Source of the DNA: Planctomycetota bacterium
GTDB taxonomy: Bacteria > Planctomycetota > Brocadiia > Brocadiales > Bathyanammoxibiaceae
DNA length: 11,167 nt
NCBI GenBank assembly: GCA_030623665.1
Contig: JAUXLO010000034.1
Location: 1-11,167, forward strand
Direction: 5' to 3'
This document shows, in pieces, positions 1,379-10,326 of the stretch (its first letter is position 1; each line of letters opens with the position of its first letter). Both the position numbers and the translations under genes were made by a program. The notes under the pieces were generated by a model. The model saw only the letters and a program-made list of their open reading frames with translations. It was not told where the DNA came from and ran no database searches.

Positions 1379-1630
1379 TTAGTCTGCCTTTTCTATGAGA
1401 ATTCTCCAGAGGTTCTCGGCCTCCTGGAGGATTTCTATAGAATAGCCCTTCTTTTGGCAGAAGTTGGGGATAGTGTTTTTGGCAGCCGGCTCGTAGTCGC
1501 ACATAACCTCCAGAACCTGTCCCTTTGAAAGGCCCTTCAGGGAGTCCCTGGTATCTATCAACGTGTACGGGCATATCTTTCCACGAATATCAACCGACTG
1601 TTCAGGCTGTTTTTCCCGCAGGGAAGTCAT
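1379..1630 (-). CDS. tusA: TusA-family sulfur carrier protein (second copy of the operon)
   Basis: An 83-residue TusA/SirA-like protein (IF3-like alpha/beta fold). TusA proteins carry sulfur as a persulfide on one cysteine. The signature region reads DIRGKICPYTL, with the acceptor cysteine at residue 20. The usual CPxP motif is CPYT here, as in other non-enterobacterial TusA relatives. Cys44 and Cys58 are additional and their role is unknown. The conserved EVMCDYEPAA segment (41-50) corresponds to the usual LxVxxDDPxA strand/turn. ATG start at 1630 lies 14 bases after the dsrH stop; the Shine-Dalgarno sequence is weak (GGAAA), so it may depend on translation from upstream. It differs clearly from the first tusA of the operon, so it is not a recent duplication. 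The partner is probably the DsrE-type protein or the membrane Fe-S protein encoded next. Confidence 0.88.
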   Translation of the reverse strand: MTSLREKQPEQSVDIRGKICPYTLIDTRDSLKGLSKGQVLEVMCDYEPAAKNTIPNFCQKKGYSIEILQEAENLWRILIEKAD

Positions 1631-1644
1631 CTATTTTTCCAATA

Positions 1645-1914
1645 CTATGCAAAATTTATCACCTTATTCTCTACTACCAGGTCCACAAGCCGGTCGTAGT
1701 CTATAAGCTCCACGTCCTCGGGCACCCGGTCTACCAGGCCCCTTTTTTCGACGTCGCTCCTTACTACGTACACCTTTGCCTTTGAGCCCGCGAGGCGGTG
1801 TGGGTCAAAGTAGACCCCGTCCTGCAGAAGTACCACGTGTGCATCATCGTCCAGTTTTACTAACTTGAGTCCGTTCTCTCCGTAGGTCTTGTTTATCAGG
1901 TACAGGTTAGCCAC
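1645..1914 (-). CDS. DsrH/TusB-like protein
   Basis: An 89-residue protein of the DsrH/TusB family, the smallest subunit of the DsrE2F2H2 (TusD2C2B2) sulfur-transfer heterohexamer. Its assignment rests on size, position third after dsrE and dsrF, and the LLQDGVYF segment (29-36), which matches a DGVY motif found in the other two paralogues. It contains no cysteine, so the cysteine present in Allochromatium DsrH is missing and this subunit should be structural. GTG start at 1914 with AAAGGG five to six bases upstream; no ATG is available. It lies 12 bases after dsrF and 14 before tusA. Confidence in the DsrEFH superfamily is high; the exact subunit name is inferred from order. Confidence 0.82.
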   Translation of the reverse strand: MANLYLINKTYGENGLKLVKLDDDAHVVLLQDGVYFDPHRLAGSKAKVYVVRSDVEKRGLVDRVPEDVELIDYDRLVDLVVENKVINFA

Positions 1915-1926
1915 GGGAACCCTTTC

Positions 1927-2277
1927 TTAAAAATCCATGACGAAATCCACTGTCTTGACAACCGTCAACAGATCCTTGCGCGGAATAATCTCGAACTCGG
2001 TGGCAACGTCCCTCTCCTTTATACCGCGCTCCTTCAGGGACTCTTTTTCCACCAGCATTTTGGCTCCCTGTTTCTGGAGGGTCGCTATATACCTCTCCGT
2101 GTCCTTTCTGTCCACACCGTGGAGGGTAAAGTAAACGCCGTCACCCAGATAGGCCACGGTGGCGACGTTCTCGTCAATCCCGCTCGTGATTCCCACGGCG
2201 GCCCTCAACCCCTCCGTGTAGTAGATGTTGCCGAAGGGTGCCTGGTTGATGGTTACAAGTACCGTTCTTTGCGCCAC
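1927..2277 (-). CDS. DsrF/TusC-like protein
   Basis: A 116-residue DsrE/DsrF-superfamily protein, probably the DsrF (TusC) subunit of the cytoplasmic sulfur-transfer heterohexamer. The N-terminus begins with a beta strand, TVLVTINQAPFG (5-16), followed by helix 21-31 and the strand/turn VAYLGDGVYF (41-50), the usual order for this Rossmann-like fold. There is no cysteine, consistent with a non-catalytic DsrF/TusC. GTG start at 2277; GGGGAG lies six bases upstream. The gene sits 11 bases after dsrE and 12 before dsrH, so the three subunits are almost certainly made together. Confidence 0.86.
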   Translation of the reverse strand: MAQRTVLVTINQAPFGNIYYTEGLRAAVGITSGIDENVATVAYLGDGVYFTLHGVDRKDTERYIATLQKQGAKMLVEKESLKERGIKERDVATEFEIIPRKDLLTVVKTVDFVMDF

Positions 2278-2288
2278 AAGAAGCTCCC

Positions 2289-2642
2289 CTATAAGGTAAT
2301 AAGGCTGTCTACCTCACTTACCATCTCGGCGAAGTCAGGCAGTCCCCCTACCGTCACACCCTCGATATAGTCCTTCCCCTTCTCCAGCCCGCGCGCATTC
2401 ACGCATATGCCGCATGCCACAATCGTTGCCCCCTTCTTCACAAGTTCCTCAAAATGGTCCTTGGGTACGGTGTTCGTGTCGGGAAAGGTCTGCAACTTTA
2501 TGGGGTTGTACACACCGTCCAGATACAGAAACATCTTTACCTCATGGCCCTTGTCCAGGGCGGCGTTTGCGATGTTGCAGGCCGTTTCCCAGTTCTCGAA
2601 CTGGTAAGGGCCAAGGGTAAGTAAAAATCCAATCTTCGCCAT
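2289..2642 (-). CDS. DsrE/TusD-like sulfurtransferase subunit
   Basis: A 117-residue DsrE-family protein, probably the catalytic (TusD-type) subunit that carries persulfide within the DsrEFH-like complex. Features: N-terminal strand KIGFLLTLGPY; a helix with A21-C22; the KMFLYLDGVY segment (36-45); and IVACGICVNARG (74-85), where Cys80 lies at about the place of the catalytic Cys78 of E. coli TusD, with Cys77 three residues before it as a CxxC pair. The pair may allow a disulfide or a second sulfur site. ATG start at 2642 with AAGGA eight bases upstream. It lies 33 bases after the ThiF-like gene. Simple single-subunit DsrE proteins exist, but the dsrF and dsrH neighbours argue for the complex. 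Confidence 0.88.
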   Translation of the reverse strand: MAKIGFLLTLGPYQFENWETACNIANAALDKGHEVKMFLYLDGVYNPIKLQTFPDTNTVPKDHFEELVKKGATIVACGICVNARGLEKGKDYIEGVTVGGLPDFAEMVSEVDSLITL

Positions 2643-2675
2643 CTGGTTATTCCTTAGAGCATGAGCAACGTAGGG

Positions 2676-3479
2676 TTAGGAGTGAACCTGACAGAACTCC
2701 TGGTAATCTATAAGCTCTTTGATCGTTGGTTTTTCCCCGCAAACCGGGCACTTTGGGTTCTTGCGGATACGCACCTCGCTGAACTCCATGGTCAGGGCGT
2801 TGTATAGCAGGAGCCGCCCCTTGAGGAGTTCGCCCTTGCCCAGTAGGAGCTTCACTACCTCTGTGGCCTGGATGGTCCCTATTACTCCGGGTAATATGCC
2901 GAGAACGCCCGCCTCCTGACAGGAGGGCACCATGTCGGCAGGTGGAGGCGCTTCAAACAGACACCTGTAACAGGGCGTCTCGCCGGGCACGATGGTGGTC
3001 ACCTGGCCTTCAAACTTAAAGATAGAGCCGTGGGAAAGGGGTTTCCCGGACAGCACACATGCGTCGTTGACCAGATATCTTGTAGGAAAATTGTCAGAAC
3101 CATCGAGTATGACGTCATAGTCCTTTATGATATCCATTATGTTTTCAGAGGTGAGCCTGTGCGTGTACGGAACCACCTCGACGTCGGGGTTAAGGGCCTC
3201 GATCGTGGCCTTTGCGGAGAGTGTCTTGGGAAAGCCGACGTCCTTTGATGAGTGGAGTATCTGTCGCTGCAGGTTGGAGTGGTCCACGTCGTCGTCATCG
3301 ACTATCCCGAGCCTGCCGACGCCGGCCGCGGCCAGATACAAGCCCGCAGGCGAGCCCAGACCGCCGGCACCGACCAGAAAGACCTTAGACCTGAGGAGCT
3401 TCTTCTGTCCCCGTCCGCCTACCTCGTTCAGTATGATGTGTCTTGAGTAGCGCTTTATCTGTTCTTCAGAAAAATCCAT
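2676..3479 (-). CDS. HesA/MoeB/ThiF-family adenylyltransferase (E1-like)
   Basis: A 267-residue E1-like enzyme. Family members adenylate the C-terminal glycine of ubiquitin-like sulfur carriers (MoaD, ThiS) so that it can be thiocarboxylated. Visible: RYSRHIIL (10-17); nucleotide-binding GAGGLGS (37-43); the acidic VDDDDVDHSNLQRQ segment (60-73); DGSDNFPTR (126-134); zinc-ligand pairs CYRC (170-173) and CPVC (244-247); and Cys187 in SCQEAGVLG, at the position of the catalytic ThiF/MOCS3 cysteine. There is no C-terminal rhodanese domain. Start chosen at ATG 3479, where the family N-terminus (MDFSEEQIKRYSRH) begins. It is five bases after the tusA stop, with AAGGAG 13 bases upstream; an ATG at 3521 would add a non-family leader overlapping tusA. 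No moaD, thiS, moaE or thiG is adjacent, so its carrier partner is unknown. Confidence 0.92.
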   Translation of the reverse strand: MDFSEEQIKRYSRHIILNEVGGRGQKKLLRSKVFLVGAGGLGSPAGLYLAAAGVGRLGIVDDDDVDHSNLQRQILHSSKDVGFPKTLSAKATIEALNPDVEVVPYTHRLTSENIMDIIKDYDVILDGSDNFPTRYLVNDACVLSGKPLSHGSIFKFEGQVTTIVPGETPCYRCLFEAPPPADMVPSCQEAGVLGILPGVIGTIQATEVVKLLLGKGELLKGRLLLYNALTMEFSEVRIRKNPKCPVCGEKPTIKELIDYQEFCQVHS

Positions 3480-3483
3480 ACCC

Positions 3484-3744
3484 TTAATCAGTCTCCTTCT
3501 TAAACACCATCTTCCAGTCAACCTCGTTCAACTTCTCGACGGCTAACACCCTTTGCCCGTCGTTCTGCATGCTTTTCGGCACGTTTTCAACCGCAGGCTC
3601 GTGGTCTACGATTACTTCCAGAACCTCGCCCAACTGCATGTCCTCCATTGCAAGCTTTGACTTTACGAACGTGTAAGGGCAGACCTCACCCTTCAGGTCT
3701 ATTTTTCGGTGGGGTTTTATGTCGTCTTTGGCGTCGCTTACCAC
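3484..3744 (-). CDS. tusA: TusA-family sulfur carrier protein (first gene of the operon)
   Basis: An 86-residue TusA/SirA-family protein with IDLKGEVCPYTF (15-26); Cys22 is the persulfide acceptor and the only cysteine. Like the downstream copy it has CPYT instead of CPxP, and it shares the EVIVDHEPAVENVP segment (43-56). It opens the leftward sulfur operon. Start: GTG at 3744 with GGAGGG about five bases upstream (an overlapping ATG at 3747 runs into a stop at once). A promoter with an extended -10 lies at 3798-3825, giving a leader of roughly 45 bases. Its likely job is to receive or deliver sulfur between a cysteine desulfurase or rhodanese (not in the window) and the DsrE-type subunit; direction cannot be told from sequence. 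Confidence 0.9.
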   Translation of the reverse strand: MVSDAKDDIKPHRKIDLKGEVCPYTFVKSKLAMEDMQLGEVLEVIVDHEPAVENVPKSMQNDGQRVLAVEKLNEVDWKMVFKKETD

Positions 3745-3877: not shown

Positions 3878-3919
3878 TGAGCTGGTTAGTTGTTCACAAG
3901 TCTGTTAGGAGTAAGATTT

Positions 3920-4327
3920 ATGGTTAAGATGGAATTATCAAGGATAATGATATCCGAGACGAGCGACCACCAGGTAATAGTCCTGAAAGAGTCGCAGGGC
4001 CAGCGCAGTTTCCCCATAGTTATCGGGCTGCACGAGGCCTGGGCCATAGACCGTGCGGTAAAGGAGATACCGACGCCGAGGCCGCTTACGCACGACCTCA
4101 TCAACAACGTGATAGAGGGGCTTGGGGGAGGCCTTTCCCAAATAGTCATAAACGACTTAAAGAACAACACCTTCTACGCCAAGCTGATGGTCCGGGGTAA
4201 CGATAACGGGGTAATCGAGATAGATTCCCGTCCCAGTGACGCCATAGCCATCGCCATGCAGAGGAAGACGCCGATCTTTGTGGAAGAGAAGGTCCTCGAC
4301 GAGGTCTGCAAGTGGAACAGTCCCTAG
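3920..4327 (+). CDS. Bifunctional nuclease family protein (DUF151)
   Basis: A 135-residue single-domain protein of the DUF151/bifunctional nuclease family. The plant members were reported as nucleases with RNase and DNase activity; the role of the bacterial ones is poorly known. Family marks: QRSFPIVIGLHEAWAI (28-43), TPRPLTHDL (52-60), a Y-A-K-L strand (86-89), the highly conserved SRPSDAIAIA (103-112) and PIFVEEKVL (118-126). Length fits the minimal bacterial form without a UVR tail. Start ATG 3920 has AGGAG eight bases upstream; an in-frame TTG at 3890 would be nearly on the transcription start. It diverges from the tusA operon and is followed with no gap by tRNA-Ser, so the two are probably co-transcribed. 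Confidence 0.9.
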   Translation: MVKMELSRIMISETSDHQVIVLKESQGQRSFPIVIGLHEAWAIDRAVKEIPTPRPLTHDLINNVIEGLGGGLSQIVINDLKNNTFYAKLMVRGNDNGVIEIDSRPSDAIAIAMQRKTPIFVEEKVLDEVCKWNSP

Positions 4328-4416
4328 GGAGGGATGGCCGAGTGGACTAAGGCGGCAGTCTTGAAAACTGCTGTGCGCTTCGCGCACCGTGGGTTCGAAT
4401 CCTACTCCCTCCGCCA
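4328..4416 (+). tRNA. tRNA-Ser (anticodon UGA)
   Basis: Acceptor stem GGAGGGA (4328-4334) pairs with TCCCTCC (4406-4412), followed by G and an encoded CCA (4414-4416). The anticodon stem GCAGT/ACTGC encloses the loop CTTGAAA, anticodon TGA (UGA), which reads UCA-type serine codons. A long variable arm (TGTGCG-CTTCG-CGCAC) and the T-loop TTCGAAT are typical of class II tRNA-Ser. Its first base follows immediately after the TAG of the preceding gene, so 5' maturation by RNase P must cut at the end of an mRNA. Confidence 0.96.
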
Positions 4417-4629: not shown

Positions 4630-5502
4630 ATGAAGAAGGTGTCTTTCTTGCTGGCTGCAATGGTGTTCTGTTTTGCTCTGGCGACTGCGGAGGCAGACTT
4701 CCTGGATGATATGATAGACAAAAGCATAGAGAAAAGTAAGGCAGAGCAGAAGGAGTTAGAGCAGAAAAACGGCGAATACAAGACCTACTACGATAATGGC
4801 AACGTAAGGAGCGTTGAGAACTATAAAGACGGCAAAAGGCACGGCGTCTACAAGGAGTTCTATGAGAACGGACAAGTGGAGCGTGAAGAACATTACAAAG
4901 ACGACAAAAGAGACGGCATCATCAAGACATACGCTGAGGGAGGAACATCGCTGATGGAAGGTCGTTATAAAGACGGCAAACCTCATGGCAAAAGCAGAAA
5001 ATACTACGAAACCGGACAGCTGGAGGCGGAATGGACCGACGTAAACGGCAAAAAGGAAGGCGCCCTGAAGATGTACCACAAGAACGGGCGGCTGAAGAGG
5101 GAGTATAACTACAAAGACGGCAAGAGGGAAGGTATAGGCAGGGGTTACTACAAGAGCGGCGATCTGGAGAATGAATGGAACTTCGTGAACGACATACAAG
5201 AGGGCACGCAAAAGACCTACTACAAGAACGGGCAGGTGGACGATGAACATACCTACAAGAACGGCAAAACAAACGGCCCGGCAAAGAAATACTGGGAGAA
5301 CGGCAAGGTGATGGGAGAAGGGACCTTGATAGACGGCAAAAGAGACGGCGCCTACACGGAGTACCATGAGAACGGACAGCCGCGGCTGAAGGCCGAGTTC
5401 GAAAACGGCAAACGGGTAGGAAAAGCCAGGTTCTTCGATGAGAAGGGAAACGAGACAGAAGAACAAACATGGGGGATACCGGGTTTATATCGCGGGATAT
5501 AA
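4630..5502 (+). CDS. Secreted MORN/YwqK-type repeat protein
   Basis: 290 residues. An N-terminal Sec signal peptide (KK, hydrophobic 5-19, cleavage probably after AEA at 22) precedes a charged linker (23-47), nine tandem repeats of exactly 24 residues (48-263) and a partial tenth (264-282). The repeat core is G-x-x-K-x-Y-Y-x-N-G-Q-x-x-x-E-x-x-Y-K-D-G-K-R-x, the MORN_2 type annotated as YwqK-family antitoxin. The sequence is rich in Lys, Glu, Asp, Asn and Tyr. ATG 4630 has AAGGAG seven bases upstream. The name antitoxin comes from Bacillus YwqK, which is cytoplasmic; with a signal peptide and no toxin gene beside it, a periplasmic or surface binding role is more likely. There is no lipobox. 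It faces the membrane-protein gene at 5587 tail to tail. Confidence 0.88.
   Translation: MKKVSFLLAAMVFCFALATAEADFLDDMIDKSIEKSKAEQKELEQKNGEYKTYYDNGNVRSVENYKDGKRHGVYKEFYENGQVEREEHYKDDKRDGIIKTYAEGGTSLMEGRYKDGKPHGKSRKYYETGQLEAEWTDVNGKKEGALKMYHKNGRLKREYNYKDGKREGIGRGYYKSGDLENEWNFVNDIQEGTQKTYYKNGQVDDEHTYKNGKTNGPAKKYWENGKVMGEGTLIDGKRDGAYTEYHENGQPRLKAEFENGKRVGKARFFDEKGNETEEQTWGIPGLYRGI
4771..5418 (+). repeat. Nine tandem 72-base coding repeats (24-residue MORN-type units)
   Basis: Units begin at each G-x-x-K/R-x-Y (residues 48, 72, 96, 120, 144, 168, 192, 216, 240) with no change of length across nine copies. Recurrent DNA pieces such as 'tacaaagacggcaa' and 'aacgg(a/g)caagg' mark the periods, but the copies have diverged in sequence, so this is an old array and not a recent slippage expansion. 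Confidence 0.9.
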
Positions 5503-5586: not shown

Positions 5587-6024
5587 TCACACCACGTCCT
5601 CTTTTGTGATATGCGGAAAATCTTCCTTTTCGAGACGGTCGGGGCCCTTCTCAAGGCCGTATGACTCCTGGACCTGCACCCTTATAAAATAACCTGCCGT
5701 GAACATGCAGACCGCAAAGCCGAGGCCGTACATGTAATTAACGTCATAATTCTTTGACACAAGACAGTACGAAATAAAGAATACCAGGGCATTCGCCGCC
5801 GAGCCTGTCACTATCGCGTACCAGCCCGGGCGGTCATACCTTATTATGCCTATGCTCAACACGAATATAAAGATCAGGCCGTTCAGGATGGTAAGCGGGG
5901 TTATCTGGCCGAGGACAAACAGCGGGACGCCGATGCAGGCGGCCGTCAGCGCCATGAACGTTATAAAGGCCGCTTTGAGCCTGAGCGGCCGGCCCATATC
6001 CGTCCTTATCACCGAGCGTCTCAC
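5587..6024 (-). CDS. Small four-helix membrane protein, unknown function
   Basis: 145 residues with about four hydrophobic segments: 18-39, 43-62, 68-89 and 96-115, then a charged, acidic cytoplasmic-type tail (120-145, ending KEDVV). Arg/Lys residues near the N-terminus and after helices 2 and 4 suggest both ends in the cytoplasm. Start chosen: GTG at 6024, whose last bases overlap the TGA stop of the symporter gene (GTGA), with a strong AGGAGG eight bases upstream. A longer reading from ATG 6252 would lie wholly inside the symporter gene in another frame. Tight coupling suggests it works with, or is expressed in proportion to, the symporter. I do not recognise a family. Confidence 0.75.
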   Translation of the reverse strand: MRRSVIRTDMGRPLRLKAAFITFMALTAACIGVPLFVLGQITPLTILNGLIFIFVLSIGIIRYDRPGWYAIVTGSAANALVFFISYCLVSKNYDVNYMYGLGFAVCMFTAGYFIRVQVQESYGLEKGPDRLEKEDFPHITKEDVV

Positions 6025-7757
6025 CTGCGCGTCCTCCTCTGGTGTCTGGAGAAATAGTCCCTGGTCAGATACACCACCACGGGACTGAGTGCGATAATGG
6101 CAATGAGGTTGGGGAAAGCCATTGACGCGTTTGCGATATCGGAAAAACCCCACACGAACCGCAGCTGTGTCATGGCCCCCAGGAACAGGAACATGAGATA
6201 GACGCACCTGTACGGCAGCAGCGCTGCCGGACCGAATAAATACCGAGCGCACCGGTCGCCGTAATACGACCAGCTTATGGCCGTCGAGATGGCAAAGAGT
6301 ATCAGCCCGGTGGTGACTATATAGCCCCCCACAACGGGTATCCCCGCATTGAAGGCGTTCTTGGTAAGCACCGACGAGTCAGCACCGCTCATCCACTGCC
6401 CGGTGATTATAATGACGAGACCCGTCAGGGAGCATAATATCAGGGTATCTACCAGTGGTTCCAGGAGCGCCACAAGCCCCTCCCGCACGGGTTCCTTGGT
6501 CCTTGCCGCCGCATGGGCGATGGCCGCGCTCCCAAGCCCCGCCTCATTGGAGAAGACGGCCCTCTTTATCCCCCAGTTAATGGTAAACAGCACCGTGGCC
6601 CCTGCAAACCCGCCCGCCGCAGCGGTGGGGGTGAAGGCGTGGTAAAATATCTGGCGAAACGCATCGGGCACCTCACTGATATTCCAAAAAATAATCGCCA
6701 GCGCACCCACCGTATATATGATACTCATTATGGGGACCAGGCGGCTTGCCACGTGGCCGATGCGTCTGATACCGCCGATAATGACCGCACCCACCACGGC
6801 GCAGATAATGAGACCGATTACGGCCCGCCAGGCCCATTTCTGCGGCACCGTGGTGGCTATCTCGTTCTCCGACAACCGGTTAAGCGACCCGTCTTTTTTG
6901 AGGAGGCCAAGCTCTCTCAGTGTGGCAGCCTCGCCGTACGGCTGTAGTGAGAACCTGCCGTCGCCCAGCGTATGGTTGGTCAGCACGATGCTGTTCTGGT
7001 CGTTTGCTATTGAGGCCGTCACCCGGCCCTTGTTTGAGGGGTTGTTGTTGATGAGGTTGAGGAGGTCCTCCACGGTCTCGGCGCCTGCCACCTTGACCAC
7101 GAAAGAGCTGCCGTCTCTCAGGTCTATCTGAAACCCGGCATCGTCTCCATGCGTGATGCCCCTGCCGCCGTTCAGTTTTGAGAGCGGTTCGTCGGGATAA
7201 TATTTGGGCAGTGCGAACTGGTCGATAAAGGCGATGGTCACGGAGTTGGACTGCACCATGTTGCCCCCGCCGAAGGTTGCCACCAACCCGGAGCATGCAA
7301 ACACTATGGCCAGCCACCTGAAGCGCGGGCCGAGGCCTCGTTCTATATAGTACATGGGCCCGCCGCTTACCGTGCCGTCCTCGTGATGCACCCTGTACTT
7401 CTGCGCCAGCGTGCACTCGGCGTATTTTATGGCCATGCCCAGGAACCCGGACACCCACATCCAGAAGAGCGCCCCCGGTCCGCCGGCATGTATGGCGGTC
7501 GCCACGCCTGCGATATTGCCCACCCCCACGGTCGCAGAGAGTGCGGCGCAGAGGGCCTGAAAATGGGTGACGTCGCCGGGGTCCCCCTCCTTGCTGTACT
7601 TCCCCATGGTAATGGCAATGCTGTGTGGGACCCTTCGCACCTGGGGGAAGAGGAGGCGCGCCGTGTAAAAACAGCCGGTGGCCAGTATGAGTATGACAAG
7701 CGGCAGCCCGAATATATAACCCGCAACGAGCTCCAGTGCGTTAGCTATACTATCCAT
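6021..7757 (-). CDS. AGCS-family Na+/alanine (or glycine) symporter with an inserted extracytoplasmic domain
   Basis: 578 residues, against the usual 440-490 for the alanine/glycine:cation symporter family (LeuT-fold). Family signatures: SATVGVGNIAGVA (74-86), GGPGALFWMWVSGFLGM (92-108, the PROSITE-type Na:alanine signature), GGGNMVQSNSV (163-173), GGIRRI (328-333), NWGIKRAVFSNEAGLGSA (394-411) and SYYGDRCARYLFG (497-509). About 11 helices. The extra length is one block, about 187-304, between the helix ending near FIDQF and the helix beginning WAWRAVIG. By the positive-inside rule the block faces the periplasm. ATG 7757 has no clear Shine-Dalgarno; a possible promoter lies so close (7766-7794) that the message might be almost leaderless. 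The stop overlaps the next gene by four bases. Substrate (alanine, glycine or related) is not decided by the sequence. Confidence 0.93.
   Translation of the reverse strand: MDSIANALELVAGYIFGLPLVILILATGCFYTARLLFPQVRRVPHSIAITMGKYSKEGDPGDVTHFQALCAALSATVGVGNIAGVATAIHAGGPGALFWMWVSGFLGMAIKYAECTLAQKYRVHHEDGTVSGGPMYYIERGLGPRFRWLAIVFACSGLVATFGGGNMVQSNSVTIAFIDQFALPKYYPDEPLSKLNGGRGITHGDDAGFQIDLRDGSSFVVKVAGAETVEDLLNLINNNPSNKGRVTASIANDQNSIVLTNHTLGDGRFSLQPYGEAATLRELGLLKKDGSLNRLSENEIATTVPQKWAWRAVIGLIICAVVGAVIIGGIRRIGHVASRLVPIMSIIYTVGALAIIFWNISEVPDAFRQIFYHAFTPTAAAGGFAGATVLFTINWGIKRAVFSNEAGLGSAAIAHAAARTKEPVREGLVALLEPLVDTLILCSLTGLVIIITGQWMSGADSSVLTKNAFNAGIPVVGGYIVTTGLILFAISTAISWSYYGDRCARYLFGPAALLPYRCVYLMFLFLGAMTQLRFVWGFSDIANASMAFPNLIAIIALSPVVVYLTRDYFSRHQRRTRR
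6846..7199 (-). other. Inserted domain resembling a flagellin hook IN motif (FliD-type repeat)
   Basis: Symporter residues 187-304. The order LNGGRGI (195-201), FQIDLRDGSSFVVKV (209-223), ETVEDLLNLINNN (227-239), RVTASIANDQNSIVLTNHT (245-263) and TLRELGLL (279-286) parallels the hook-IN repeat of flagellar hook-associated proteins (LNGG-G-I, DxxRDG, V-D-LxxLINNA, V-A-I, G-LVLTD, A-LGL). This is recognised by eye, not by a search. The reading frame is open through both borders and the borders sit in a normally short loop. Confidence 0.65.
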
Positions 7758-7916: not shown

Positions 7917-8336
7917 CTACTTCCCTTCTTTCTCCTGCCGCTCCTTCTTTAGAAAGAACCGGACGTTGCCCAGCCAGTTTTTATTCACCTTTTTTGCGTA
8001 CTCGCTTACGCCCTTCCCCTTGGTAGGGGCGTATCTTGAGCCCAGAAATTTCAGGAAGGTGTCATACTCCTTGTGGCCGTATTCAGTGTAACGCTTCCGG
8101 TTATCCTTTATGGTGTTCAGGCATATCTTACGTGCGTCCGCCTCGTCAGTGTAAGGGATGGAGCGGATCCCGTATAGATAGGTCGCTTTTTCCCCGCCCT
8201 CTGCCCTGAAGATGGCGTCTGCTATCTCATCGTCGGTGTAGGTCTCAGCGGATGCGGAAGCGGGAAGGCTTATTAGCGCAATCAGCGCGAAAATGATAAT
8301 CATGGACGGCATTGTCATCAGAATCTTTTGTTTCAT
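7917..8336 (-). CDS. Small secreted lysozyme/transglycosylase-like protein
   Basis: 139 residues with a Sec signal peptide (MKQKI, hydrophobic 8-26, cleavage likely after ASASA at 30). The mature part has the pattern DDEIADAIFRAEGGEKATYLYGI (35-57), ARKICLNTIKDNRKRY (68-83), FLKFLGSRYAP (94-104), NKNWLGNV (118-125). This resembles small exported proteins annotated as hypothetical or transglycosylase-like; Glu46 in RAEGG is the plausible catalytic acid. That enzymatic role is an inference. Start: ATG 8336, overlapping the mnmA stop as ATGA, where the signal peptide begins. An in-frame ATG at 8414 would put a charged 26-residue leader before the signal and overlap mnmA by about 80 bases. Translation is probably coupled to mnmA. 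Confidence 0.75.
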   Translation of the reverse strand: MKQKILMTMPSMIIIFALIALISLPASASAETYTDDEIADAIFRAEGGEKATYLYGIRSIPYTDEADARKICLNTIKDNRKRYTEYGHKEYDTFLKFLGSRYAPTKGKGVSEYAKKVNKNWLGNVRFFLKKERQEKEGK

Positions 8337-9478
8337 ATAGATACTTTCGAGTTTCTGTGGAGAGGGCTTGCGGGGGTTGAGGGTGCGCTTAAAGGGGTTT
8401 TTCGCTTTATCCATCCCCCTCCCAGGACTGTGTCTTTAGCATAAAAGACCGCGGCCTGTCCGGGTGTAACGGCCTTTTGCGGCTCGTCAAAGACCACCCT
8501 CACCACATCGTCTTTGACCGGGCGGATGGTGGCCGAAGCGGGCCTATGCTTGTACCGTATCTTCACCTCTGCCCTGAAATTTTCGGCCGCCGGTTTTTTT
8601 ATGGATACCCAGTTAAGGTCCGAGACGAGGAATTCCGATACAAGCGTCTCATCGTCCCTCCCCACGGTCACCACCTGGCCCACCGGGTCTATGTCCACCA
8701 CGTAGTAGGGCTCCCCCATGGCTATACCAAGGCCCCTGCGCTGGCCTATGGTGAAGAACTGGATGCCGGGGTGGTTTCCCAGCACCCTTCCGCGGGTGTC
8801 TTTTATAAGTCCTGGTGTGGCGGCACCTTCCATGCGTTCTCGGATAAGCCCTCCGTAGCCCTCCTCCGGGACGAAGCATACCTCCTGGCTGTCCGGCTTT
8901 GCCTTGGTCCTCAGGCCCAGTTCACCCGCCTTTTTCCTTACCTCCTCCTTGGTCCACTCCCCCAGGGGGAAGAGGGCGTGCGCAAGTTGCTCCTGTGACA
9001 GGGGGAAGAGTACGTAGGACTGGTCCTTCCGGCCGTCACGAGCGGCCTTTAAGCTATAACGCCTCCCCGTCAGTGCCAGTCTTGCATAATGACCCGTTGC
9101 AAGGTAAGCGGCGCCAATATCACCTGCAAATCTCAGCAGTTTACCGAATTTCAGGGTCTGGTTGCATATTATGCACGGGTTGGGCGTCCTGCCCCGCGTA
9201 TACTCGGCACAGAAATAGTCAACCAACCCCTCAAACGCCCCCTTGAAATTGAGCACGTAGAAGGGGATGTCAAGGGACTCTGCTACCCTCTCCGCGTCAT
9301 GCGCATCCTCCACGCTGCAACAGCTCCTGGCCCTGGGCTCATCTGCCGTAGCGGCCCCGGACAGGTTGCCCATCCTCATAAACAACCCAACTACGTCGTA
9401 GCCCTGCTCTCTCAGCAGGTAGGCGGCGACACTACTGTCCACACCGCCGCTCATGGCTATAACCGCCTTTTTCTTCAT
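8333..9478 (-). CDS. mnmA: tRNA-specific 2-thiouridylase MnmA
   Basis: 381 residues. MnmA activates C2 of U34 in tRNA-Lys, -Glu and -Gln with ATP and replaces the oxygen by sulfur from a persulfide donor. Visible: the PP-loop SGGVDSS (10-16); NPCIICNQTLKFG (100-112), whose Cys105 in the CN pair is the usual nucleophile; SQEVCFVPE (197-205) with Cys201 as the second catalytic cysteine; FFTIGQRRGLG (241-251); and the C-terminal beta-barrel with YKHRPA (309-314) to VLGGGWI (351-357). A 20-odd-residue Ser/Pro-rich tail follows the normal end. ATG 9478 matches the family N-terminus (MKKKAVIAMSGG); the ribosome site is weak. It lies 44 bases after the M50 gene. TusA and DsrEFH-type proteins encoded about 6 kb away could supply its sulfur, as TusABCDE does in E. 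coli, but no TusE is visible. Confidence 0.96.
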   Translation of the reverse strand: MKKKAVIAMSGGVDSSVAAYLLREQGYDVVGLFMRMGNLSGAATADEPRARSCCSVEDAHDAERVAESLDIPFYVLNFKGAFEGLVDYFCAEYTRGRTPNPCIICNQTLKFGKLLRFAGDIGAAYLATGHYARLALTGRRYSLKAARDGRKDQSYVLFPLSQEQLAHALFPLGEWTKEEVRKKAGELGLRTKAKPDSQEVCFVPEEGYGGLIRERMEGAATPGLIKDTRGRVLGNHPGIQFFTIGQRRGLGIAMGEPYYVVDIDPVGQVVTVGRDDETLVSEFLVSDLNWVSIKKPAAENFRAEVKIRYKHRPASATIRPVKDDVVRVVFDEPQKAVTPGQAAVFYAKDTVLGGGWIKRKTPLSAPSTPASPLHRNSKVSI

Positions 9479-9522
9479 GTCGGGAACTCGGCAAAAAACT
9501 GCACTTTCGCCTATTACATCGC

Positions 9523-10326
9523 TTAAGGTGCCTCGAATTTTAACGGCGCAGGAGTAAAACACACTGCGAAGATAATGAGCAGGGCCACACCTATCAGTTT
9601 TCTCCTGCTGTCAAGCCCGGTGAATTCGTCCAGGGGCGCCGGGTGGCGAAACCCAAAAACGAGTAACAGCATGGCGAACAGTAACCATCCCGGATAGTAA
9701 AACACCGCTATACAACAGAACGCAAAAATACCCATCCTGTAGACAAGCTCACTTTTTCTTCCGAGGAGGGCGTAGATGATGTGGCCGCCGTCCAGTTGTC
9801 CTATGGGCAGGAGGTTTAATGCAGTTACAAATAACCCCGCCCAACCCGCAAACGCAATCGGGTGGAGGTATATGTCGAATCCCTCCGGCACGTTTCCGAC
9901 GACCGCATTGGCAAGGAAGGTAAAGAGCAAGGGTTCGCCGAGTCCCATATAATGTGTGTCCTCGGTGGTAGGCACTGCGTGCACCTCTGAGAGGCTGAGC
10001 CCGATGATGACAGCGGGGATGGCAAAGACCAGTCCGGCCAGGGGGCCCGCTGCTCCTATGTCGAACAGCGCCTTCTTGCTGGGAATGTGGCCCCGCATCT
10101 TAATCAGTGCACCGAACGTGCCGAAGGGCGGAAAGGGCACGGGGATAAAAAACGGCGCCGTAGCCTCCACGCCGTATTTCCTGCACATGACAAAGTGTCC
10201 CATCTCATGGGACAGGAGTATGGTCATTATGGCCATGGAATAATACGGGCCGTTGACCAGATAAGTGGTGCACGCAGTGCAAACAAATAGAATTATGTTG
10301 GTTCTGTATTTTTGAAAGAATTCCAT
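9523..10326 (-). CDS. M50-family site-2-type membrane metalloprotease
   Basis: 267 residues, integral membrane zinc protease. Zinc motif HEMGH (40-44) sits at the end of the first hydrophobic region, and the second motif NLLPIGQLDGGHI (171-183) gives the LDG aspartate (Asp179). Between them: the PVPFPPFGTFGALIKMRG region (62-79) and GAAGPLAGLVFAIPAVIIG (91-109), typical of the S2P group that resembles plant EGY proteins, without a PDZ domain. Further helices cover about 156-175, 195-230 and 242-258. Such enzymes cleave membrane-anchored regulators or remnant signal peptides; the substrate here is unknown. ATG 10326 has AAGGA nine bases upstream. It heads the unit M50 - mnmA - lysozyme-like gene, from the promoter at 10377-10405. 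Confidence 0.93.
   Translation of the reverse strand: MEFFQKYRTNIILFVCTACTTYLVNGPYYSMAIMTILLSHEMGHFVMCRKYGVEATAPFFIPVPFPPFGTFGALIKMRGHIPSKKALFDIGAAGPLAGLVFAIPAVIIGLSLSEVHAVPTTEDTHYMGLGEPLLFTFLANAVVGNVPEGFDIYLHPIAFAGWAGLFVTALNLLPIGQLDGGHIIYALLGRKSELVYRMGIFAFCCIAVFYYPGWLLFAMLLLVFGFRHPAPLDEFTGLDSRRKLIGVALLIIFAVCFTPAPLKFEAP

Follow-up and report, generated by a model that had tools for sequence, protein, structure and literature searches.

Transporters of the AGCS (sodium:alanine symporter) family import small neutral amino acids in a Na+-coupled manner, and these LeuT-fold carriers are regarded as compact. The gene described here encodes an AGCS carrier with a large additional block in one loop. 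It lies at 6021..7757 on the minus strand of an 11,167-nucleotide stretch (the window; contig JAUXLO010000034.1, assembly GCA_030623665.1) from a planctomycete of the order Brocadiales. Its open reading frame of 578 amino acids (aa) matches PF01235 in two stretches with 460.5 bits (cut-off 24; E 7.6e-138) and TIGR00835 with 505 bits (cut-off 272.65; E 1.6e-151), in agreement with an earlier model-made annotation of the DNA (the original prediction) that had read it as a 578-residue AGCS symporter. The protein has the LeuT fold of AgcS, and it aligns to AgcS of PDB 6cse (E 8.5e-103) with residues 8-183 and 313-568 against chain residues 7-184 and 188-442, respectively. Because the alignment to AgcS stops at chain residue 184 and resumes at 188, the carrier is complete by sequence comparison and a block of approximately 121 residues is extra. 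Judging by the family, the substrates of the core are most likely small neutral amino acids, taken up together with Na+.

This membrane transporter appears to have co-opted a flagellar building block. The insert spans residues 185-305 (6843..7205, minus strand), as delimited by its absence from an insert-free relative (L115) and by alignment in 32 homologues; the predicted borders, 187-304 (6846-7199), were right within two residues. A search profile, A2, was built from 18 inserts and run against the phylum Planctomycetota (392 genomes, E ≤ 1e-4, at most 11 candidates scored per genome). Matches were found in at least 102 genomes, seven in the order of the window, in AGCS-length frames, and 95 outside it, and the profile reaches flagellar proteins with E values down to 5.5e-24. 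Nineteen matching regions were examined: nine are FliD-like and nine FlgL-like by their N-termini, most of them containing several repeats, and the nineteenth (L043) is part of a giant frame. Pfam was run on eight of the 18 flagellar-like proteins, the other ten being assigned by reading the N-termini. Four of the eight contain FliD_N and FliD_C, three of these with PF07196 over the cut-off and the fourth just below it; the other four have Flagellin_N over the cut-off and Flagellin_C at or slightly below it. Among five further A2 regions are two additional giant frames, the others being fragments that look flagellar.

Individual comparisons point the same way. The best repeat, residues 772-892 of the FlgL-like protein L034, covers profile positions 3-121 of 125 (independent E value 1.7e-24) and is 39% identical to the insert of S. 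sediminis over 120 aa and 32% identical to the window insert over 115 aa. Overall, pairwise identity between inserts and flagellar repeats is 32-40% over 94-120 aa. In the FliD-like protein L037, a PF07196 match at 280-320 falls within the A2 match at 255-346. When the insert alignment was compared by hhalign with alignments of the FlgL and FliD repeats, it scored 99.7% and 99.6%, respectively, values that are not independent, as the repeats were preselected by A2. When the insert was modelled separately, its best structural alignments were to flagellar entries, and structure comparison assigns it the FliD D2 fold.

Single-sequence searches were less telling. PF07196 scored 13.1 bits on the whole protein and 13.9 bits on the insert, under the cut-off of 22.7, and reached E ≤ 1 in three of 18 insert sequences (best E 0.0023). 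An NCBIfam FliD model matched the insert weakly (E 0.0034), far under its own cut-off, and neither FliD_N nor FliD_C matched the whole window protein in Pfam at E ≤ 1. Direct naming of the insert by Pfam was dropped, as no match was significant. A Foldseek search of the insert model against the PDB gave no match at E ≤ 0.001, with FliD D2-D3 ranking seventh, and the insert profile gave ten matches to PDB sequences at E ≤ 10, the best (0.039) ubiquitin-like and none FliD. Thus the predicted likeness of the block to the hook-IN repeat of FliD-type proteins is upheld by the A2 profile, the pairwise identities and the top structural alignments, but not by the PF07196 score of these residues or by Foldseek alone.

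Taken with the predicted fold, the profile comparisons support homology of the insert to FliD/FlgL-type repeats. Convergence on a common beta fold could also produce such likeness, yet it is very improbable given that the profile matches are near full length with E values down to 5.5e-24 and that the S. sediminis insert and the L034 repeat, besides their 39% identity, have PL-LN-G-G, TVGD-L and INNHP-N in common. The insert thus has a sequence profile and a fold in common with PF07196, FliD D2 and the FliD and FlgL repeats of planctomycetes. Unlike these repeats, it is present as a single copy within a transporter, is joined to the next membrane helix by a hairpin-like linker and, taken singly, falls below the Pfam cut-off. 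A tree of the repeats did not separate a FliD from a FlgL origin, and no donor is claimed; the AGCS inserts are not monophyletic in it, with the Scalindua FliD repeats L094 and L095 falling among them on long branches.

The very long frames with A2 matches, L043, L160 and L161 (6793, 12316 and 12094 codons), are not recognisably flagellar. L043 has PF07196 over the cut-off and a weak M12 peptidase match. The presence of related repeats in such frames suggests that the module is used outside flagella. PMC5595980 describes flagellins with an inserted metallopeptidase domain, likewise a domain that crosses between flagellar and non-flagellar proteins. The direction is reversed, however: there an enzyme enters a flagellin, whereas here a flagellar-type domain sits in a transporter.

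The layout of the insert indicates an outward-facing domain. Its hook-IN or FliD D2-like part, defined by A2 matches to FliD/FlgL-like proteins and by fold, comprises residues 190-287 (6897..7190, minus strand) and is predicted to fold independently. Residues 288-305 (6843..6896, minus strand), which the insert model shows as a pair of short strands and which are delimited also by conservation, would be the C-terminal hairpin-like linker and lie past the end of most FliD/FlgL matches. In the alignment with L115 the gap covers residues 185-305, and one alignment splits it into 185-241 and 246-305. The insert is flanked by transmembrane helix (TM) 4, residues 144-182, running from in to out (7212..7328, minus strand), and TM5, residues 308-328, running from out to in (6774..6836, minus strand). 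Both were placed from the full-length AlphaFold model, which also supplied the helix borders for the charge count, and from loop charges. The membrane part of that model is unreliable, with low values of the predicted local distance difference test (pLDDT) in the TM4 helices, and contacts between domain and core were left uninterpreted because of this. Lysine plus arginine residues average 3.0-4.7 in each of the loops after TM1, TM3, TM5, TM7 and TM9 and in the C-terminus, and 0-1.5 in the N-terminus and the remaining outer loops, the insert loop apart. The insert loop itself has 17.4 acidic versus 12.8 basic residues. This charge pattern supports an external position for the insert, in agreement with the earlier claim that the block lies outside the inner membrane. 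We take the TM4-TM5 loop that holds it to correspond to extracellular loop 2 of LeuT.

The insert is common among relatives of the window organism. The best 120 listed homologues, including the protein itself, are 568-600 aa long with 98-100% query coverage, and where names are given these are Brocadiales, Brocadiaceae, Planctomycetota, Scalindua, Scalinduaceae or marine sediment. Species genomes were also scanned with AGCS-flank motifs, an approach blind to insert-bearing genes that lack them and perhaps to records close to the window's own genome. This found at least 15 relatives, of which 14 have the insert: nine named Scalindua, two Anammoxibacter, "Brocadiaceae bacterium S225", an uncultured bacterium and Planctomycetota CSMAG_693. 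Of the 62 genomes in the order of the window, AGCS is matched in 33, and in 17 an AGCS-length frame (573-616 codons) includes the insert. These 17 comprise three genomes of the window's genus, two of family f4 (Anammoxibacter) and 12 of family f3 (Scalindua-type). In one more genome, the 18th, the insert match is weak and falls in a 1038-codon frame. Fifteen of the remaining 16 AGCS genomes have an uninterrupted AGCS gene with no insert match there, and the last (G396) has an uninformative fragment. An assembly or gene-call artefact would fit a window genome that is fragmented and 82% complete, but its likelihood is negligible given the recurrence of the block in 14 genome records and at least 119 homologues. 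Accordingly, the misassembly at the block borders that the original prediction had allowed for is not borne out, and the long homologues for which it had called are found in all 119 others listed.

Gene order and phylogeny indicate the history of the insert. Upstream of the AGCS gene lie two conserved neighbours identified by neighbour clusters, which from their motifs are presumably an MnmA-like gene (8333..9562, minus strand) and a gene for an M50-like membrane peptidase (9523..10326, minus strand); the M50-like gene is present in 12 of 15 loci and the MnmA-like gene in 13, some loci ending at contig ends. A small gene between MnmA-like and AGCS (7917-8414, minus strand) has no Pfam match and clusters with one L100 gene and with none in the other 13 loci compared. 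L115 (JACQHT010000150.1, NC_groundwater_1106) keeps the M50-MnmA-AGCS order and lacks the insert, with 67-69% identity to the window protein on both sides of the insert position. Its protein also occurs as P0121, with four member sequences and a longest contig of 90,581 bases. Identity is 40-53% at the other 14 loci without an insert, and neither the M50-like nor the MnmA-like neighbour accompanies them within the stretches taken. In a core tree of 41 sequences, sampled from AGCS of the window's order, insert carriers and L115 split from the order's ten other AGCS with an ultrafast bootstrap (UFBoot) of 100, and the deepest branching is weakly supported (65-82). L115 was considered as a pre-insertion state and rejected because it pairs with the insert-bearing P0022 (UFBoot 100). 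The simplest reading of tree and synteny is one gain in the ancestor of several anammox families, inheritance in place and at least one loss, L115 being, from its sequence, an apparently clean loss. According to passages of PMC10467342, JACQHT01 genomes, including NC_42_111, are placed in Ca. Subterrananammoxibiaceae.

A flagellar role of the insert is unlikely. FliD_N is present in 37 of 62 genomes of the order (36 over the cut-off), including 12 of the 17 with the insert; it was found in none of nine genomes of the window's family and was not found in five of the 17 insert-bearing genomes (82-95% complete). The lack of a detected FliD in these five argues that the insert is not a flagellar part. 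Parts of PMC9723696 describe Ca. Bathyanammoxibiaceae, which may include the family of the window, without flagellum genes, and parts of PMC11104535 describe loss of flagellar genes in Scalindua of oxygen-deficient zones. The frames with FliD_N have 1032-1301 codons in the Scalindua-type family, bar one short fragment, and mostly approximately 490-630 in family f2. A hydrazine synthase domain was found in 39 of 61 genomes of the order, among them one of the three from the genus of the window, and was not found in the window genome (82% complete).

Accessory sequence is also seen elsewhere in planctomycete AGCS proteins, which were matched in 102 of 294 Planctomycetota genomes. Of 20 AGCS loci from other Planctomycetota, picked largely for long matches and hence not a fair sample, 14 (L138-L151) have 44-223 extra aa in the TM8-TM9 loop and two have approximately 40 extra aa, divided over two segments, at the TM4-TM5 loop. 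Pfam was run on six of the proteins with a longer TM8-TM9 loop and detected no domain at E ≤ 0.001 besides AGCS and permease families. Outside the order, no listed A2 place coincided with a listed PF01235 place when compared by eye. The inserts belong to the same family and phylum, and the TM8-TM9 loop is likewise outward-facing by charge topology, but they sit in another loop than the window's insert. The extras in both loops suggest that outward loops of planctomycete AGCS accepted inserts more than once.

The insert is under purifying selection that is weaker than on the core. Mean identity over 78 pairs of 13 loci is 0.44 for the insert and 0.76 for the core. In 24 of the 25 closest pairs with a value, the ratio of nonsynonymous to synonymous substitution rates (dN/dS, NG86) lies at 0.10-0.36 in the insert, compared with 0.04-0.11 in the core; these ratios are rough, many dS being near or above 1. 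Across 32 sequences, 21 of 94 domain positions are at least 90% conserved, and the mean frequency of the commonest residue is 0.80 in the N-side linker, 0.62 in the domain and 0.62 in the C-side linker.

What the domain does is best approached by weighing three possible functions, among which docking to a putative envelope partner is favoured over gating or a tolerated passenger. We place a probability of approximately 0.45 on the domain being an extracytoplasmic docking module on an AGCS carrier with an ordinary Na+-coupled core, neither flagellar nor essential for transport. The LeuT-fold core would take up small neutral amino acids in the ordinary Na+-coupled way, the domain would be an accessory that ties the carrier to another, putative envelope component, and the core would be able to transport without it. 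Several points weigh against this proposal. The loss in L115 would be equally expected of a domain that is dispensable and has no important role, the insert evolves fast relative to the core, and the substrate and coupling ion are presumed from family membership. The TM4-TM5 loop of LeuT-fold carriers lies near the extracellular vestibule, and a domain in this loop could instead be a lid or regulator that alters substrate access, affinity or the transport cycle, as the better conservation of the N-side linker than of the domain (0.80 versus 0.62) might indicate. This is unlikely, since the core of L115 is typical of AGCS without the domain, the domain is far more variable than the core, and conservation of the C-side linker (0.62) does not exceed that of the domain.

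A passenger, meaning a self-folding module that was inserted by chance, is tolerated and persists only because misfolding would harm the carrier, would explain the clean loss in L115, the constraint weaker than on the core and the mere 21 of 94 well-conserved positions. This too seems improbable, given that the insert is retained across deep divergence in 17 of the 18 order genomes with a complete orthologue (the G396 fragment aside), and that dN/dS is well under 1. For the docking module a fuller scenario can be proposed, if only tentatively and with doubt: a flagellar cap or junction domain would have moved to a secondary transporter of ancestral anammox bacteria and would now serve for extracytoplasmic docking, by which the carrier is positioned or coupled in the anammox envelope. 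It would have outlived the flagellum in lineages that lack one, with outward loops of planctomycete AGCS broadly hosting accessory domains.

Among the literature listed, no title or abstract opening mentions this insert, and "alanine" and "symporter" are absent from the passages of the anammox literature examined. The case is an example of a flagellar domain redeployed away from flagella, and the insert marks a protein feature common to uncultured anammox bacteria of several marine and groundwater families. A conserved outer folded domain is a natural tool for asking what accessory domains add to AGCS carriers, for which L115, without the insert, and P0022, with it, form a natural comparison pair.

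Rfam detected no riboswitch in the window, where only a tRNA reaches its gathering score. A bifunctional nuclease domain gene (3890-4416, plus strand) is directly followed by a tRNA-Ser(tga) gene, and a protein built of MORN_2 repeats is encoded at 4630-5502 (plus strand). A compact sulfur-relay-like cluster at 1379-3744 (minus strand) comprises TusA, DsrH, two DsrE, ThiF and TusA.
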